Positions 14,551-20,890 of a DNA stretch of 36,871 nt are shown in pieces. The DNA lies in contig RECW01000247.1 in the NCBI GenBank assembly GCA_007693835.1, positions 1 to 36,871 on the forward strand, given 5' to 3'. This DNA is from Paracoccaceae bacterium. Its GTDB lineage: Bacteria; Pseudomonadota; Alphaproteobacteria; Rhodobacterales; Rhodobacteraceae. Every line of letters starts with the position of its first letter. The stretch's first letter is position 1. The translations under genes and the position numbers were made by a program. The notes under the pieces are model-generated. The model did no database searches and was not told the origin of the DNA. It saw nothing but the letters and a program-made list of their open reading frames with translations.

Positions 14551-16266
14551 ATGGAAGCGCTGATCGCCGCCAACGTGTTCTACGAGATCGCCGCGCTTCT
14601 GGTGATCGCCGCGGCGGTCGGCCTGGTGGGGCTGCTGCTGCGCCAGCCGCTCATCGTCAGCTTCATCGCCGTCGGCGTGCTGACGGGGCCGTCGGTCCTC
14701 GGGATCGCGCAGTCGGATCAATACATCGACCTCCTGGCGGCGCTCGGCATCTCCGTGCTGCTGTTCATGGTCGGGCTCAAGCTCGACCTGTCGCTGGTGC
14801 GCTCGATGGGCGCGGTGTCGCTGATGACCGGCCTCGGGCAGGTGGCCTTCACGGCGAGCTTCGGTTTCCTGATCTGCCTCGCGCTGGGCCTCGACCCGGT
14901 GACGTCGATCTACGTCGCGGTCGCGCTCACCTTCTCGTCCACGATCATCATCGTGAAGCTGCTGTCGGACAAGAAGGAGATCGACTCGCTCCACGGCCGC
15001 GTCGCCCTCGGCTTCCTCATCGTGCAGGACATCGTCGTGGTGATCGCGATGATCGTGCTCTCGGCGCTCGGCGTCGGCGCCGACGCGGACGCAGGGCTCG
15101 AGGAGGTGCTGGAGGTCTTCGGCTACGGGGCCGGGATGCTGGTCGCGGTGGGCCTTTTCATCCGCTACGTCGCAGACCCGCTGACCGAGCGGCTGTCGCG
15201 CGCGCCGGAACTGCTGCTGTCCTTCTCCATCGGCTTCGCCGCCTTCATGGCGGCGCTCGGGGATTTCCTCGGCTTCGGCAAGGAGCTCGGCGGTCTGCTC
15301 GCGGGCGTCGCGCTCGCCTCGACCCCGTTCCGCGACGCCATCGCCGCGCGGCTGGCGCCGCTGCGCGACTTCCTGCTGCTGTTCTTCTTCATCGCCCTCG
15401 GGGCGGCGCTCGACCTGTCGCTGCTCGGCGCTTCGGTCCTGCCGGCGGTGGTGCTCTCGCTGTTCGTGCTGATCGGCAACCCGCTGATCGTGATGATCAT
15501 CATGGGGCTCCTTGGTTACGCCAAGCGCACCGGCTTTCTCGCGGGGCTGACGGTGGCGCAGATCAGCGAGTTCTCGCTGATCTTCATGGCGATGGGCGTC
15601 ACCCTCGGCGACGTGACGAACGAGGCGCTGGGGCTGGTCACGCTGGTCGGCCTCATCACCATCGCGGCGTCGACCTACATGATCACCTTCTCCCACACGC
15701 TTTACGCGTGGTTCGCGCCGTTCCTCGGCGTGTTCGAGCGGCGCGAGGCGCACCGCGACGACGCGCCGTCGGCGCACGGCCGCTACGACATCGTGGTGTT
15801 CGGCGTCGGGCGCTACGGCGGCGCCATCGCGCAGCGGGTGCGCCGGGCGGGATGGCGGGTGCTCGGCGTCGACTTCAACCCGCAGGTGGTGCGGGCGTGG
15901 CGCGAGGCGGGTCTCGACGTCATCTACGGCGACGCGACCGACCCCGAGTTCATCGCCGACCTGCCGCTCACGGGCGCGCGCTGGGCGATCTCCGCGGCGC
16001 CCGAGCACGACACCGGCGTGACGCATCAGGAGACGCGGGCCGCGCTCATTTCGGGACTGCGGGCGCGCGGTTTCCGCGGGCGCATCGCGGTCGCGGTGAA
16101 TCGCGAGGACGGATCGGAGGACCTGTCGATCGAGGGCGTCGACCTCACCCTGCGCCCGTTCCTCGACGCCGCCGACCGCGCGGTCGAGATTCTGCTCGGC
16201 GCAGTCGAGCAGGAGCATGTCGAGCCCGTCGAGACCCAGAGCCCGCAGCGCGAGCTTGCGAGCTGA
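14551..16266 (+). CDS. CPA2 family monovalent cation:proton antiporter (Kef type) with TrkA-N domain
   Basis: A 571-residue inner-membrane transporter exchanging K+ or Na+ for protons. About a dozen hydrophobic segments fill residues 5-390; GFLIVQDIVVV (155-165) carries the conserved Gln-Asp pair of the CPA2 core. A cytoplasmic RCK/TrkA-N domain begins at about 413 with VVFGVGRYGGAIA, a Rossmann GxGRxG motif that binds nucleotide, and extends to about 535. A short tail ends at 571. GAGG lies 7 bases upstream of the ATG. It is 99 bases from the moxR operon, with a hairpin between, so is probably a separate unit, and it converges on the peroxidase partner gene with a 20-base gap. KefB versus KefC identity and glutathione gating cannot be assigned. 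Confidence 0.92.
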   Translation: MEALIAANVFYEIAALLVIAAAVGLVGLLLRQPLIVSFIAVGVLTGPSVLGIAQSDQYIDLLAALGISVLLFMVGLKLDLSLVRSMGAVSLMTGLGQVAFTASFGFLICLALGLDPVTSIYVAVALTFSSTIIIVKLLSDKKEIDSLHGRVALGFLIVQDIVVVIAMIVLSALGVGADADAGLEEVLEVFGYGAGMLVAVGLFIRYVADPLTERLSRAPELLLSFSIGFAAFMAALGDFLGFGKELGGLLAGVALASTPFRDAIAARLAPLRDFLLLFFFIALGAALDLSLLGASVLPAVVLSLFVLIGNPLIVMIIMGLLGYAKRTGFLAGLTVAQISEFSLIFMAMGVTLGDVTNEALGLVTLVGLITIAASTYMITFSHTLYAWFAPFLGVFERREAHRDDAPSAHGRYDIVVFGVGRYGGAIAQRVRRAGWRVLGVDFNPQVVRAWREAGLDVIYGDATDPEFIADLPLTGARWAISAAPEHDTGVTHQETRAALISGLRARGFRGRIAVAVNREDGSEDLSIEGVDLTLRPFLDAADRAVEILLGAVEQEHVEPVETQSPQRELAS

Positions 16267-16286
16267 CTGGCGTCAGGCGCCGGTCC

Positions 16287-16748
16287 TCACCGACACTGGG
16301 CGAAGGTGTAGTCGGCGATCCGGCTGTCGAGGAAGGCGCTGTTCGACGGCGCGTAGTCTCCCCCGCGGATGTAGTCGTAATAGAACCGGTCGACGTAGAA
16401 CTCGCCGGAGCGCCCGCCATGGTCGAAGGCCACGGCGAGGTTGCGGCTCTCGGCGAGCAGTTCGGGGTCGGGCAGGCGGATCACCACCTGCTCCGGCGCA
16501 TGGCTGACGTAGACGGCGGCCGCGTCCTCCGCGACGCCGAAGATCTCGAGCACGCCGGGTATGCGCCATGCGTTCCGCGCCGCGACGTAGGTCGCCGCGA
16601 TGGTCTCGACGCCGAGCGCGTTGTTCACGTAGGCCGCAAGCCCCTCCATGAACCCCGCGAGCGTCTCGGGCCGCTTCTCGGCGGTCGTGAGCCGCGCGAG
16701 CCAGGCGCCGACGAGCTGGTGGGACATGACGTTCATCTCGACGGGCAT
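16287..16748 (-). CDS. Small tyrosine-rich protein coupled to the haem peroxidase gene
   Basis: A 153-residue protein I do not recognise. The ATG at 16748 lies 2 bases past the peroxidase stop, with GGAGG 6 bases upstream (overlapping the peroxidase 3' end), so it is clearly co-transcribed. An ATG at 16754 is too close to that site. No signal peptide or membrane segment is seen. The first 70 residues are helical (QLVGAWLARL, LAGFMEGLAAYVNNALG), the middle looks like beta structure (AAVYVSHAPEQVVIRL), and the C-terminal third is tyrosine-rich (six Tyr between 118 and 147, including FYVDRFYYDYIRGGDY). The only cysteine, C152, is next to last. The context suggests a peroxidase partner, chaperone or substrate; this is inference. 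Confidence 0.75.
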   Translation of the reverse strand: MPVEMNVMSHQLVGAWLARLTTAEKRPETLAGFMEGLAAYVNNALGVETIAATYVAARNAWRIPGVLEIFGVAEDAAAVYVSHAPEQVVIRLPDPELLAESRNLAVAFDHGGRSGEFYVDRFYYDYIRGGDYAPSNSAFLDSRIADYTFAQCR

Positions 16749-16750
16749 CG

Positions 16751-18298
16751 TCATCCTCCGGAAGATGCAGGGGAGAAAAGGGCGGCGAGGGCGTCCATGG
16801 TGCGCGGCGGGGCGCCGTCGAACACGACCGTCCCGTCGGCGTCGCTCCGGGCGGCGGCCGCGGCGTCGCCGTTGAGCGCGCGCGCGGCGTAGAGCGGTTC
16901 GGCGAAGAGCGCCGAGCCGAGCGCGCCGAGCCGCAGCGCGTCGCCCCCGCCCGCCGCCGCCGGCGCGGCCGCCTCGACCAGCGTGAACAGATAGAGCGGC
17001 GGGTCGAGCGCCAGCGCGCGCCGCCACGGGGCGAGCCGCGCGTCCGCGCCGATCCACCGCGCCATGGCGCCGGCGCGCCGGAGCGGATTGAGCGCGAGCC
17101 ACCGCGCCGAGCCCGCCTCGCGCCCCAGCCGCCGCGCGAAGCCCGCCGCCGTGGCCGTCACCGTCTGGACGCCGCCCTCCATGCCGCGCGCGAGGTCGCG
17201 GAGCACGAGGTGCGCGCGCGTTCTCGCCGCCGCGTCGCCCGGCATGAGGCCGGGCGCTTCGGCGAAGAAGACGCTGACGTGGGGTTCGAAGGGGTCGGCG
17301 GCCTGCGCCTCGGGGCCGAAGAACGCGGGCCAGTCGACGCGCCACAGCCGGCCCTTGCGGAACGCCTCGGGGTCGCGCTTCACCGTGTGGCGCAGCATGT
17401 AGGCGACGTTGACCGCATGGCCGTCGTTCACCGTGCGCCCGACGGCGTAGTCGGCCCGCACCAGCGCGTGGCCGACGCGGGAGACGGCGTGGGTGAACTC
17501 CACCGGCATGTCGTCGGTCTGCGCGGCGAAGGGTTCGTCGAGCGCCCCCTCCCGCTCGTAGCGGGCGCGGACGTCGGGGCGCAGCAGGCGCGGCAGCAGG
17601 TCGTCGAAAACCAGCCGCCGGAACGTCGCCTCGGTGACGGCGCGCGCCGCCGCGAAGCGCTCGGCCGGATCGCCATACGCGGTGAGCCGGTCGAGCGCCC
17701 GGTTGTGGAGCCGCATGAACAGCCCGGCGAGCTGGGCCACCACCGGGTTCTCGTCGTTGCGCTCGTCGACCCCGCACTGCGGCGCGCGCGGGTCGGCCGG
17801 GCAGCCGGCGCGCGGGCGGACCGTCAGGCGCGGGATCGGGCCGGGTCCGAAGCGGCCGATCCTCAGCCGCCAGTCCGCGAGCTGGCCCACCCCTTCGCCG
17901 TAAAGATACGGCGCGTCCTCAGGCCCCTCGCCATAGATCGAGTCGAGCCGCAGCCGTCGCCGCCGCCAGGGCACATGCGGCACGTCGCGGCGCGGGTAGA
18001 ACTCGGGATCGGTGGAGAAGTGCAGGTCGTGGGTGACGAACTGCGCGAAATAGGCGTAGCCGGCCGGGAAGCCGGCGCCGCCCTCGCGCGCAGGCCCTCG
18101 GATCAGCCGGAAGGCCAGCGCCTCCAGCATCCGCTCGGTCTCCAGCATGGAGCCGACGCCGCGCCAGCGCGCGCAGTCGGGCGCCGCGCCGGCGCCGAGG
18201 ATGTTGCGGAACCCCTCGGGCGGGTCGGCGGGCAGGGCGGCGTCGCGCGCGTCGGGCCAGAGGCTGAGCGGCAGCGAGCGGCGGAGGGTGGGGTGCAT
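16751..18298 (-). CDS. Animal-type haem peroxidase (myeloperoxidase/peroxinectin superfamily)
   Basis: A 515-residue bacterial member of the animal haem peroxidase superfamily, using H2O2 to oxidise halides or organic substrates. The distal histidine is H90 in FAQFVTHDLHF (84-94), a likely catalytic arginine R180 is in DERNDENP (178-185) followed by the family's RLHNR (196-200), and the proximal haem ligand is H277 in AVSRVGHALV (271-280). No classical signal peptide is present, so it is cytoplasmic or exported by another route. The ATG at 18298 is chosen because GGAG lies 6 bases upstream. It is followed directly by the tyrosine-rich gene, and a crotonase gene ends 68 bases upstream on the same strand. 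The physiological substrate is unknown. Confidence 0.9.
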   Translation of the reverse strand: MHPTLRRSLPLSLWPDARDAALPADPPEGFRNILGAGAAPDCARWRGVGSMLETERMLEALAFRLIRGPAREGGAGFPAGYAYFAQFVTHDLHFSTDPEFYPRRDVPHVPWRRRRLRLDSIYGEGPEDAPYLYGEGVGQLADWRLRIGRFGPGPIPRLTVRPRAGCPADPRAPQCGVDERNDENPVVAQLAGLFMRLHNRALDRLTAYGDPAERFAAARAVTEATFRRLVFDDLLPRLLRPDVRARYEREGALDEPFAAQTDDMPVEFTHAVSRVGHALVRADYAVGRTVNDGHAVNVAYMLRHTVKRDPEAFRKGRLWRVDWPAFFGPEAQAADPFEPHVSVFFAEAPGLMPGDAAARTRAHLVLRDLARGMEGGVQTVTATAAGFARRLGREAGSARWLALNPLRRAGAMARWIGADARLAPWRRALALDPPLYLFTLVEAAAPAAAGGGDALRLGALGSALFAEPLYAARALNGDAAAAARSDADGTVVFDGAPPRTMDALAALFSPASSGG

Positions 18299-18366
18299 GG
18301 GGCGCTCCGTCGTTGCGTGTCGCCCCATCCGTTAACGCCCGAACCGTCAGCGCAGCGTCAGCCGCC

Positions 18367-19131
18367 TCACGCGCCGCGCCATTGCGGCGGGCGCTTGGCG
18401 AGGAAAGCCTCCATGCCTTCGCGGAAATCCGCGCTCATGTAGCAGAGTTCGATCAGGTCGGCGTCGTCGACCGGCGCGGCCTTCATCATGCGCCGCAGCG
18501 CCTCCTTGCTCGCGCGCATCGTCAGCGGCGCATGGGCCGAGAGCGTCTCGGCGAGCTCCTCGGCGCGGGCGAGCGGGTCGTCGGCGATCTCGGTGACGAG
18601 GCCGAGCGCCAGCGCCTCCTCCGCCCCGACAAGGCGCGCGGTCAGCAGCAGCTCCTTCACCCGCGCGGGGCTGACGAACTGGCAGAGCCGCGCGAGGTTG
18701 GTGACGGCGAGGCAGTTGCCGAGCGTGCGCGCCATGGGAAAGCCGAACTTCAGCCCGCGGTCGGTGATGCGCAGGTCGCAGGCCGCGGCGATCGACGCCC
18801 CGCCGCCGGTGCAGGCGCCGGTGATCGCGGCGATGGTGGGGACCGGGCAGCGCTCGACCGCGTCGAACACCACCTCCATCCGCTCCTCGTAGGCGTGGGC
18901 GTCGGCGGGCGTGGCGAAGGCGCGGAACTGCGTCATGTCGGTGCCCGCGGCGAAGGCCTTGCCGCCGGCGCCGCTGACGATCAGCGCCTTCACCGAGCCG
19001 TCGGTCGGCATCTCGCGGCAGACGTCGCGCAGCCCCTCGTACATCGCGTAGGTCAGCGCGTTGCGCGCCTCGGGCCGCTGGAAGGTGAAGCGGCCGACGC
19101 CGCCCGTGACGGCGTAGCTGAATTCGGACAT
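18367..19131 (-). CDS. Crotonase-fold (enoyl-CoA hydratase/isomerase family) protein, atypical active site
   Basis: A 254-residue crotonase superfamily member that should bind an acyl-CoA. The oxyanion-hole segments are present: KAFAAGTDM (58-66) and ITGACTGGGASIAAACD (103-119). Compared with rat enoyl-CoA hydratase, the two catalytic glutamates are missing: the GGGCE position reads GGGAS (S113) and the Gln-Pro-Glu position reads FPM (M133). The usual PGxGGTQRL stretch is replaced by LGNCLAVTNLARL. Simple hydration of enoyl-CoA is therefore unlikely; decarboxylation, hydrolysis or isomerisation of a special CoA ester is possible. GGGAG precedes the ATG. It lies 64 bases after the formate dehydrogenase beta gene and 68 bases before the peroxidase. 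Confidence 0.88.
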   Translation of the reverse strand: MSEFSYAVTGGVGRFTFQRPEARNALTYAMYEGLRDVCREMPTDGSVKALIVSGAGGKAFAAGTDMTQFRAFATPADAHAYEERMEVVFDAVERCPVPTIAAITGACTGGGASIAAACDLRITDRGLKFGFPMARTLGNCLAVTNLARLCQFVSPARVKELLLTARLVGAEEALALGLVTEIADDPLARAEELAETLSAHAPLTMRASKEALRRMMKAAPVDDADLIELCYMSADFREGMEAFLAKRPPQWRGA

Positions 19132-19195: not shown

Positions 19196-20890
19196 TCAGA
19201 TCTCGTCGGGGAAGTGCCGCATCACCGCGCGCAGGGGGTTCGGCGCCGCCTGGCCGAGGCCGCAGATCGAGGCGTCCTCCATGGCCTGCGCCAGCTCCTC
19301 CAGAAGCTTGCGGTCCCACTTCGGGGCCTTCATGAGCTTGACCGCCTTTTCGCACCCCACCCGGCAGGGCGTGCACTGGCCGCAGCTCTCGTCCTCGAAG
19401 AACCGCATCAGGTTCAGCGCCACCTCGCGCATCGAGTCCCTGTCGGAGAACACCACCACCGCGGCCGAGCCGATGAAGCAGCCGTGGGGCTGCAGCGTGT
19501 CGAAGTCGAGCGGGATGTAGTCCATCGTCGCCGGCAGCAGGCCCCCCGAGGCCCCGCCCGGCAGGTAGGCCTTGAACGTGTGGCCGTCGGCCATGCCGCC
19601 GCAGTAGTCGTCGATCAGCCGGCGGATGGTGATCCCGGCCGGCGCCAGCTTGACCCCCGGCTCCCGCACCCGACCCGAGACGGAGTAGGAGCGCAGACCC
19701 TTCCGCCCGTTCTCGCCGTGGCTGGCGTAGACGTCCGGCCCGCTGCGGGCGATGCGCGCGATCCAGTAGAGCGTCTCGATGTTGTGGACGAGCGTCGGCC
19801 GCCCGAAGACGCCGACCTGCGCGACATAGGGCGGGCGGTGACGCGGCAGGCCGCGCTTGCCTTCGATCGATTCGATCATCGCGCTCTCTTCGCCGCAGAT
19901 GTAGGCGCCGGCCCCGCGCCGCAGCTCGACGTAGCCGGGGGCGATCACGCCCGCCTTCTCGAGTTCGGCGATCTCGGCGCGCAGGATCTCCAGCACGGCC
20001 GGATACTCGTCGCGCATGTAGAGGTAGCAGCGCTCGGCCTCGATCGCCCAGGCGGCGATCAGCATGCCCTCCAGAAACACATGCGGTTCGCGTTCGAGGT
20101 AGAAGCGGTCCTTGAAGGTGCCGGGCTCGCCTTCGTCGCCGTTGATCGCGAGGTAGCGCGGCCCCGGCTCGGCGCGGACGAAGGCCCATTTCTTCCCGGC
20201 CGGAAAACCCGCGCCGCCGAGGCCGCGCAGACCCGACGTCAGGATGTCGTGCTGCAGGTCGTCGCGCGGGCGCGCGCCTGCGCGCAAGGCCGCGAGCGTC
20301 GCATAGCCGCCTTCGGCCGCGTAGCGCGCGTAGTCCTCGTAGTCGGGCAGGCGCGGGTGGAAGTCGCCCGAAGCGACCACCGATTCCACCCGCGCCGGGG
20401 TCGCATGGTCGACGTGGCGATGGCCGACTTCGGCCGTCGGGGCCACGTCGCAGCGGCCCATGCAGGGGGCGCGGAGCACCCGCACCTTGGTGGGGTCGAC
20501 GCCGTCCTCCAGCGCGGCGATCAGCGATTCGGCCCCGTGCAGCATGCAGGACACGCTGTCGCAGACCCGCACGGTGACGGCGGGCGGCGGCGTCTCGCCC
20601 TCCCGCAGCGGGTCGAAGTGGGCGTAGAAGGTCGCCACCTCCCAGACCTGCGCCTGGGAGAGGCGCATCTCCTCGGCCAGCGCGCGCAGGTGGGCGGCCG
20701 GCAGGCAGCCGTGCGCGTCCTGGATCAGGTGCAGATGCTCGATGAGCAGGTCGCGCCGTCGCGGACGGTCGCCGAGCAGCCGGCGCACGTCGGCGAGCGC
20801 CGCGTCGTCGAGCTGGCGGCCCTTCGGCGTGCGCCGGCCCTTGCCCTTGCCCGACTTCCAGACGCCCGATTTGTCGTCAAGCGGAGACAT
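19196..20890 (-). CDS. NAD-dependent formate dehydrogenase beta subunit (NuoE-NuoF-like fusion)
   Basis: A 564-residue flavoprotein that passes electrons to NAD+. The N-terminal thioredoxin-like NuoE domain carries a 2Fe-2S site, C110, C115, C143, C147. The NuoF part binds FMN and NADH (RGLGGAGFPAGKKW, 222-235; INGDEGEPGTFKDR, 249-262; RGAGAYICGEESAMIESIEG, 325-344). The last domain holds the N3-type 4Fe-4S cysteines C503, C506, C509 and C543. The basic N-terminal extension is typical of FdsB/FdhB-type proteins. No molybdenum alpha subunit, FdhD or delta subunit lies beside it: downstream is a crotonase and upstream a divergent unrelated gene. A HoxF-type hydrogenase subunit is a less likely alternative. 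Confidence 0.88.
   Translation of the reverse strand: MSPLDDKSGVWKSGKGKGRRTPKGRQLDDAALADVRRLLGDRPRRRDLLIEHLHLIQDAHGCLPAAHLRALAEEMRLSQAQVWEVATFYAHFDPLREGETPPPAVTVRVCDSVSCMLHGAESLIAALEDGVDPTKVRVLRAPCMGRCDVAPTAEVGHRHVDHATPARVESVVASGDFHPRLPDYEDYARYAAEGGYATLAALRAGARPRDDLQHDILTSGLRGLGGAGFPAGKKWAFVRAEPGPRYLAINGDEGEPGTFKDRFYLEREPHVFLEGMLIAAWAIEAERCYLYMRDEYPAVLEILRAEIAELEKAGVIAPGYVELRRGAGAYICGEESAMIESIEGKRGLPRHRPPYVAQVGVFGRPTLVHNIETLYWIARIARSGPDVYASHGENGRKGLRSYSVSGRVREPGVKLAPAGITIRRLIDDYCGGMADGHTFKAYLPGGASGGLLPATMDYIPLDFDTLQPHGCFIGSAAVVVFSDRDSMREVALNLMRFFEDESCGQCTPCRVGCEKAVKLMKAPKWDRKLLEELAQAMEDASICGLGQAAPNPLRAVMRHFPDEI

Follow-up and report, generated by a model that had tools for sequence, protein, structure and literature searches.

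An animal-type haem peroxidase gene in a bacterium of the Paracoccaceae is followed directly by a gene for a small protein of no recognised family, which raises the question of what the small protein and the peroxidase do together. The stretch of DNA analysed, here called the window, comprises positions 1 to 36,871 (36,871 nucleotides) of contig RECW01000247.1 in assembly GCA_007693835.1. An earlier, sequence-only reading had taken the small protein for a dedicated substrate of tyrosine cross-linking, a maturation factor or an export partner of the peroxidase. When relatives were compared, the peroxidase and the small protein were found together with a YcaO protein and a BTAD regulator, and this set of four (the module) looks like a previously undescribed pathway. 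Every small protein found has the same Tyr...Cys ending, and it is therefore this tail that the pathway appears to modify chemically.

The features of the locus are collected in Table 1. The reported gap of 2 bases and the ribosome-binding site overlapping the end of the peroxidase gene agree with the coordinates: the peroxidase stop codon (TGA) occupies 16751-16753 and the ATG of the small gene 16746-16748, with GGAGG 6 bases ahead of it. The gap is real in the window, but the tight link drawn from it did not extend to the relatives. Across the module the two genes overlap by 11 bases at one extreme and stand 72 bases apart at the other, with starts assumed and some starts uncertain (TTG in G796 and G1035), and the gap amounts to 41 bases in Rubrimonas cliftonensis; tight 2-base coupling is therefore no fixed feature. 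An in-frame ATG at 18328 is a possible alternative upstream start of the peroxidase, and an overlapping ATGA is the other possible start of the small gene. Beyond the small gene lies a convergent KefB-type antiporter gene (14551-16266, identity read by eye). No promoter or terminator was found in a scan of 15900-18700, and the sole Rfam match in the window was one tRNA.

Table 1. Position of the features discussed, numbered along the window
Feature	Position	Strand	Basis or remark
Animal-type (myeloperoxidase/lactoperoxidase superfamily) haem peroxidase gene	16751..18298	-	PF03098; ATG of MHPT...
Small-protein gene, precursor-like, 153 aa, new family	16287..16748	-	without Pfam, NCBIfam or PADLOC match
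Distal His90 codon of the peroxidase (numbered from 18298)	18029..18031	-	alignments
Distal Arg180 codon of the peroxidase	17759..17761	-	alignments
Proximal His277 codon of the peroxidase	17468..17470	-	alignments
GGAGG ribosome-binding site of the small gene, within the last peroxidase codons	16755..16759	-	sequence reading
Leader-like N-terminal part of the small protein, residues 5-106	16431..16736	-	distant hhalign likeness to nitrile-hydratase-like leader peptides
C-terminal tail RIADYTFAQCR of the small protein, residues 143-153, proposed modification site	16290..16322	-	conservation, 10 homologues

The assignment of the larger protein to the animal-type haem peroxidases, with His90, Arg180 and His277 in its active site, was borne out: it matches PF03098 with 41.7 bits (cut-off 25), and the three residues align to the sites of the superfamily. 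Four module peroxidases were scanned in this way, the window's included; that of R. cliftonensis, an orthologue 53-54% identical to the window's, scored 40.3, while those of G512 (24.3) and G741 (17.0) fell below the cut-off. A profile of six module peroxidases matches lactoperoxidase and myeloperoxidase, the closest solved structures, with E 5e-8. The distal and the proximal His are present in all ten module peroxidases and the distal Arg in nine. The exception is G512, where the peroxidase is fused to the small domain; it carries Phe at the distal Arg position and, three residues further along, Ser where the others have an acid, a double loss that makes peroxidase chemistry doubtful in this protein. 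Further positions, those of the haem ester acids included, were compared using myeloperoxidase numbering (Glu242, Asp94, Met243). Like myeloperoxidase and lactoperoxidase, the module peroxidases have the distal His and Arg, the proximal His and an acid at the Glu242 position (9/10). They differ from both in the absence of an Asp before the distal His and of a Met at the Met243 position, in their tie to a YcaO and a small protein, and in the absence of a visible signal peptide; in the window none could be seen by eye, as had been noted before. At the Asp94 position all ten carry T, A, S, V or G, never an acid, and the two haem ester acids of the mammalian enzymes were thus not found together.

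In a peroxidase tree the module sequences cluster (2 label changes against a shuffled mean of 7.5). A long-branch sequence from outside the module, L010, joins that of G741, so that a single origin of the module peroxidases does not follow from the tree. Twelve related peroxidases from outside the module gave no small-protein match in the available sequence, which extended at least 790 bases downstream in eight cases and 1-291 bases in the other four. Structure predictions made from two sequences each reached a pLDDT of 35 for the peroxidase and 52.5 for the small protein, and both were set aside.

The small protein had been called unrecognised, and it still matches no known family: no match was obtained in Pfam, NCBIfam or PADLOC, and those in PHROG and the PDB were at chance level. 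Homologues were sought in successive searches covering 61, 385, 295, 394, 385, 23, 18 and 274 genomes, in sets that overlap and with profiles that differ. The single-sequence search gave its first match within the genus, in R. cliftonensis DSM 15345, whose small protein is 55% identical. A scan of genome contigs with a pair of short patterns, both derived from the two Rubrimonas sequences, returned R. cliftonensis only and is too narrow for species counts. A family-level search led to G512, where the small domain is a C-terminal fusion on the peroxidase; this match (E 5e-4) was accepted after the fusion had been read, and the domain is 40% identical to the small protein of a member found later, G267. 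Stepwise profiles then yielded G741, next G129 and G267, then G796, and finally G980, G995 and G1035. The family is rare but spread: homologues come from 10 genomes (the window's included), which belong to 7 genera in 5 families, all within the class Alphaproteobacteria. No homologue was found in the viral contigs and plasmids searched.

Weak matches were treated separately. The first two-row profile gave, at class level, 24 such matches besides the window (E 2e-4 to 0.05), of which 20 were read by eye as histidinol dehydrogenase (L038 only in part); among the other four, L034, L039 and L041 gave no such reading and L030 is ambiguous. These matches are attributed to a chance likeness with a segment close to the end of histidinol dehydrogenase. 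In later searches, weak matches with E > 1e-4 were left out of the count: L048, G028, G475, G500, G714, G379, G117, G039 and G951. L047 is a histidinol dehydrogenase and L049 lies opposite a flagellin-like frame, and both were excluded; the weak matches G236 and G227 fall on histidinol dehydrogenase genes already met with the first profile.

The best conserved stretch of the small protein is its last 12 columns (nine rows, the near-duplicate G995 being left out). The window protein ends in ...ADYTFAQC-R, and the tail consensus is R[VI][GA]DYTxxxCx at a free C-terminus, with the Asp, the Tyr and the penultimate Cys present in 10/10 (D146, Y147 and C152 in the window). The ten tails read ADYTFAQCR, ADYVFSSCR, GDYTTRSCR, GDYTIAQCK, GDYTIAQCG, GDYTVANCA, GDYTISFCG, GDYTISYCA, GDYTISFCA and ADYTISVCS, and the final residue varies freely. 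The penultimate Cys is the sole cysteine in six of the ten proteins; among 142 other neighbouring ORFs, chosen mechanically, only one had a cysteine in this place. Upstream of the tail, the invariant features are a strand ending R[LM]P, a Gly and a Pro; a conserved Gly-Gly cleavage site is absent from the ten aligned proteins. The Tyr...Cys tail is retained even in the G512 fusion.

This pattern bears on the cross-linking proposal, in which the small protein would serve the peroxidase as a structural substrate, its tyrosines being joined as dityrosine. Peroxidases of the animal haem peroxidase superfamily oxidise tyrosine, and the features that had suggested the proposal are correctly described: six tyrosines lie between 118 and 147 (118, 123, 124, 126, 132 and 147), and the single cysteine, Cys152, is next to last of 153 residues. 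The proposal had been staked on conservation of the cluster, and the cluster is not conserved. Tyr147 is invariant and Tyr123 is kept in 9/10, whereas Tyr126 occurs in 3/10 and Tyr118, Tyr124 and Tyr132 in 2/10 each. As dityrosine formation would also leave the invariant Cys and the YcaO unexplained, it is considered very unlikely.

The neighbourhoods supplied the other members of the set. The peroxidase lies directly ahead of the small gene in all ten genomes and is fused to it in one (G512), which upholds the view of the small protein as a dedicated peroxidase partner; the reverse outcome envisaged at the outset, homologues mostly away from a peroxidase, was not encountered. A BTAD regulator gene is present in all ten as well, converging on the small gene in nine (Pfam on four, the remainder assigned by similarity). 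A gene of the YcaO cyclodehydratase family was found in nine, in eight of them within the cluster; the G796 contig starts at the BTAD gene, and a YcaO could not be seen there. The YcaO adjoins the BTAD gene in seven of the nine convergent clusters (R. cliftonensis, G512, G267, G129, G980, G995 and G1035), the G129 copy being a fragment cut by the contig end. The peroxidase-small pair converging with a YcaO-BTAD pair is accordingly the commonest layout (7/10). In G741 the YcaO stands ahead of the peroxidase and on its strand, the only such genome, with G796 not visible.

Neither gene can be seen in the window. In the window's genome the YcaO, its 5' end cut by the contig edge, and the BTAD gene lie together on another contig, C219, apart from the peroxidase-small pair. 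The window's genome and R. cliftonensis are the mutual closest pair in all four proteins (48-58% identity), and the split pair is therefore assigned to the set. Because YcaO and BTAD genes stand beside the peroxidase-small pair in the relatives, the interpretation moves from Tyr-Tyr cross-linking or an export partner to YcaO-dependent, RiPP-like modification of the DYxxxxC tail.

In a mechanical comparison of neighbouring ORFs no other family reached three genomes. The ORF choice overlooked some module genes, among them the small gene in the window and, in R. cliftonensis, those for the small protein, the BTAD regulator and the YcaO, so that a fifth conserved gene may have escaped. No transporter, protease, immunity gene or azoline dehydrogenase was seen recurring with the set. 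The rest of the neighbourhoods has hardly anything in common, except between the near relatives G980 and G995. An ordinary operon neighbourhood, assembled by chance and without functional link, might be read from this diversity, yet the same linkage recurs in 10 genomes, 7 genera and 5 families amid otherwise differing surroundings, and once as a fusion, which makes chance hardly credible.

In another explanation, the small protein would assist the peroxidase as a non-catalytic subunit or as a maturation factor (for haem insertion, haem-protein linkage or stability), and YcaO and BTAD would only be co-regulated or have another target. The small protein always follows the peroxidase directly or is fused to it, and the two pairs of genes are convergent in 7/10, hence separately transcribed, and sit on separate contigs in the window's genome. 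A maturation factor would, however, not explain why the Tyr and the penultimate Cys never vary at the free C-terminus, not even in the fused protein, nor why a YcaO occurs in all nine genomes where one could be seen. We regard this explanation as unlikely, though it deserves more weight than dityrosine formation.

The YcaO proteins of the window's genome, R. cliftonensis, G512 and G741 exceed the PF02624 cut-off; those of G267, G129 (the fragment), G980, G995 and G1035 were placed by alignment, and the G995 and G1035 proteins also match NCBIfam YcaO models, below the cut-offs of those models. For the six module YcaOs scanned, the best NCBIfam model was TIGR03604 (SagD, azoline-forming), with E down to 2e-34 and scores of at most 119 bits, in all six below the curated cut-off of 219. 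They score higher as SagD type than as McrA-thioamidation type. Among solved structures, TruD and LynD come nearest to the G512 YcaO. TruD is an azoline-forming cyclodehydratase. LynD is named as such an enzyme in PMC12455567.

A likeness of the N-terminal part of the small protein to nitrile-hydratase-like (NHLP) leader peptides was first noticed by eye, and the leader family was likewise picked by eye. Seven leaders from three genomes, retrieved with TIGR03793 (six over its cut-off), were aligned and compared with the small proteins by hhalign. All ten small proteins gave a score of 28.6 (probability 38%, P 3e-4), which was reached by none of 199 column shuffles and none of 62 natural segments. 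Six small proteins had given 18.0, with 4 of 200 shuffles as high, and the rise to 28.6 followed the addition of four later members; a seven-row subset scored 23.8 (0/200 shuffles), and a post-hoc subset of three was likewise unmatched in 200 shuffles. No match to TIGR03793 or any other NCBIfam model was obtained at E up to 10 for the nine small proteins scanned (G980 left out), in a search where most weak matches are lost to the HMMER filters. The ten-row alignment was also inspected by eye for the L(X)4L leader motif of PMC12455567, which was not counted as present. The comparison is suggestive of a distant similarity between the N-terminal part and NHLP-type RiPP leaders.

Such a part could also serve as a docking domain. 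The small protein would then be an adaptor, an RRE-like or leader-like module joining the YcaO to the peroxidase, with the peroxidase itself or some unlinked protein as the target of the YcaO; the fusion in G512 fits this arrangement. A docking module does not need an invariant C-terminal DYxxxxC, however, and a six-row peroxidase alignment showed no conserved site at the peroxidase C-terminus. The adaptor is judged improbable, more so than the maturation factor.

The interpretation preferred here, with a probability of roughly 0.6, is RiPP-like: the ribosome would make the small protein as a precursor or carrier, and the YcaO and the peroxidase would modify its free Tyr...Cys tail. The leader-like N-terminal part would present the tail to the YcaO, which, with ATP, would activate the peptide bond before the penultimate Cys (Gln151-Cys152 in the window) and most likely close a thiazoline there. 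The haem peroxidase would then oxidise the tail with hydrogen peroxide, at the invariant Tyr147, at the heterocycle or at both, standing in for the flavin dehydrogenase usual in azole pathways. The BTAD protein presumably switches the set on. Given a tail invariant across 7 genera and no recurring transporter, protease or immunity gene seen, an internal product (a cofactor, a signal or a modified protein) seems likelier than a diversifying antibiotic or weapon.

Precedent for parts of this scheme is found in PMC12455567, where an azoline-forming YcaO recognises folded NHLP leaders and converts the one Cys present in a short test core into a thiazoline. Several observations count against a RiPP-like reading. 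The nine small proteins scanned gave no library HMM match, the hhalign probability is only 38%, and no conserved Gly-Gly site is found; the tail is invariant, whereas NHLP cores are described as hypervariable in PMC4603692. The YcaO-BTAD pair is not adjacent in the window's genome, G512 has lost the distal Arg, the divergence of the small protein correlates only moderately with that of the peroxidase (Spearman 0.45), and no azoline dehydrogenase or protease was seen recurring.

Comparison with known systems places the module beside several of them. It resembles the NHLP-type RiPPs (proteusins, and the YcaO-modified NHLP azol(in)e peptides of MprE/MprC/MprD, as set out in PMC12455567) in its long leader-like N-terminus with a C-terminal target region and in a YcaO nearest the azoline-forming SagD kind, and the leader profile suggests a distant similarity. 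It differs from them in lacking a TIGR03793 match and a conserved Gly-Gly, in its invariant core, in having a haem peroxidase where they have a flavin dehydrogenase, and in its BTAD regulator; nor was a recurring transporter seen. The thioamide-forming YcaO-TfuA clusters, reported also in Bradyrhizobium according to PMC8120280, share the action of a YcaO on ribosomal peptides; unlike these, the module has YcaOs that score better as SagD type, and no TfuA was recognised among its conserved genes. The module appears to be YcaO-dependent and RiPP-like, without established membership in any named RiPP class.

In line with the earlier statement that no bacterial system of such form had been described, no account of a YcaO combined with a haem peroxidase and a BTAD regulator or RiPP precursor was found in the open-access literature, judged partly by title and abstract start. 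PMC4603692 and PMC8120280 do not use the word peroxidase in their main texts. PepA (PMC3396595) is a bacterial member of the animal-type haem peroxidases. PMC8776678 mentions a YcaO cluster in Roseomonas mucosa and, in another place, a Dyp-type peroxidase with an encapsulin, a peroxidase of unrelated kind.

PQQ and mycofactocin are made from conserved ribosomal precursors with an invariant Tyr-containing core, are encoded on the chromosome and are not weapons; radical SAM enzymes act in their formation. The module would share the conserved precursor, the invariant Tyr core, the chromosomal location and the role other than as a weapon, and differs by its YcaO, its haem peroxidase and the Cys in the core. 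It is conceivable, though on balance doubtful, that the module makes a cofactor or signal of ribosomal origin that belongs to a class of its own, likewise made from a peptide by different chemistry, in which an invariant C-terminal Tyr...Cys core on a folded leader is converted to a conserved heterocyclic or Tyr-Cys-derived redox group by a YcaO and a myeloperoxidase-like enzyme. We know of no earlier role of an animal-type haem peroxidase in a pathway to a peptide-derived cofactor or signal.

One conserved bacterial gene set thus joins the superfamily of human enzymes such as myeloperoxidase and thyroid peroxidase with YcaO peptide chemistry. The invariant tail makes the proposed modification concretely and cheaply testable. 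If the modification is true, the module would constitute a new RiPP-like class and give animal-type haem peroxidases a new job, and its product may be a new peptide-derived cofactor or signal in the Alphaproteobacteria.

The window's genome carries a second animal-type haem peroxidase, on contig C16, and within the stretch of that contig searched (L002) no match to the small protein was found beside it. The YcaO encoded outside the module in this genome scored better than the module YcaO.

The putative peptide-type transporter set was noticed adjoining the module in none of the other genomes. The putative formate dehydrogenase flavoprotein genes of the window and of genome G1035 were recognized as homologues by neighbour comparison, and no homologue was seen close to the module in the remaining members.

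Proteins with two repeats resembling nitrile-hydratase-like leader peptides (NHLP), many of about 210-240 aa, are common in Alphaproteobacteria, with scores under the TIGR03793 cut-off. At E 0.001, matches to this model were obtained in 37 of the 96 genomes of the class scanned, and above the cut-off in 3 only.

In G512, where peroxidase and small protein are fused in one gene, the alignment places Phe at the position of the distal Arg and Ser at that of the acid three positions further. Because both residues are replaced, the sequence hints that the peroxidase reaction of the fused protein may be altered or absent.

Features located in the window and in related stretches
Feature	Location	Strand	Remark
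Second animal-type peroxidase, contig C16	L002 898-2439	-	window's genome
101-aa ORF, cupin-like by eye	L002 380-685	-	after second peroxidase
Second YcaO	G000:C101:22727-23671		window's genome, outside module
Peptide-type ABC transporter and binding protein genes, by eye	L106 3022-8242	-	window's genome, immediately after BTAD gene
Formate dehydrogenase flavoprotein, by eye	window 19196-20890	-	near module
Formate dehydrogenase flavoprotein, by eye	L113 (G1035) 16055-17734	+	near module
Two-NHLP-like-repeat protein, example	G000:C175:40510-40899		window's genome
Peroxidase-small protein fusion, G512	L050 7422-9413	-
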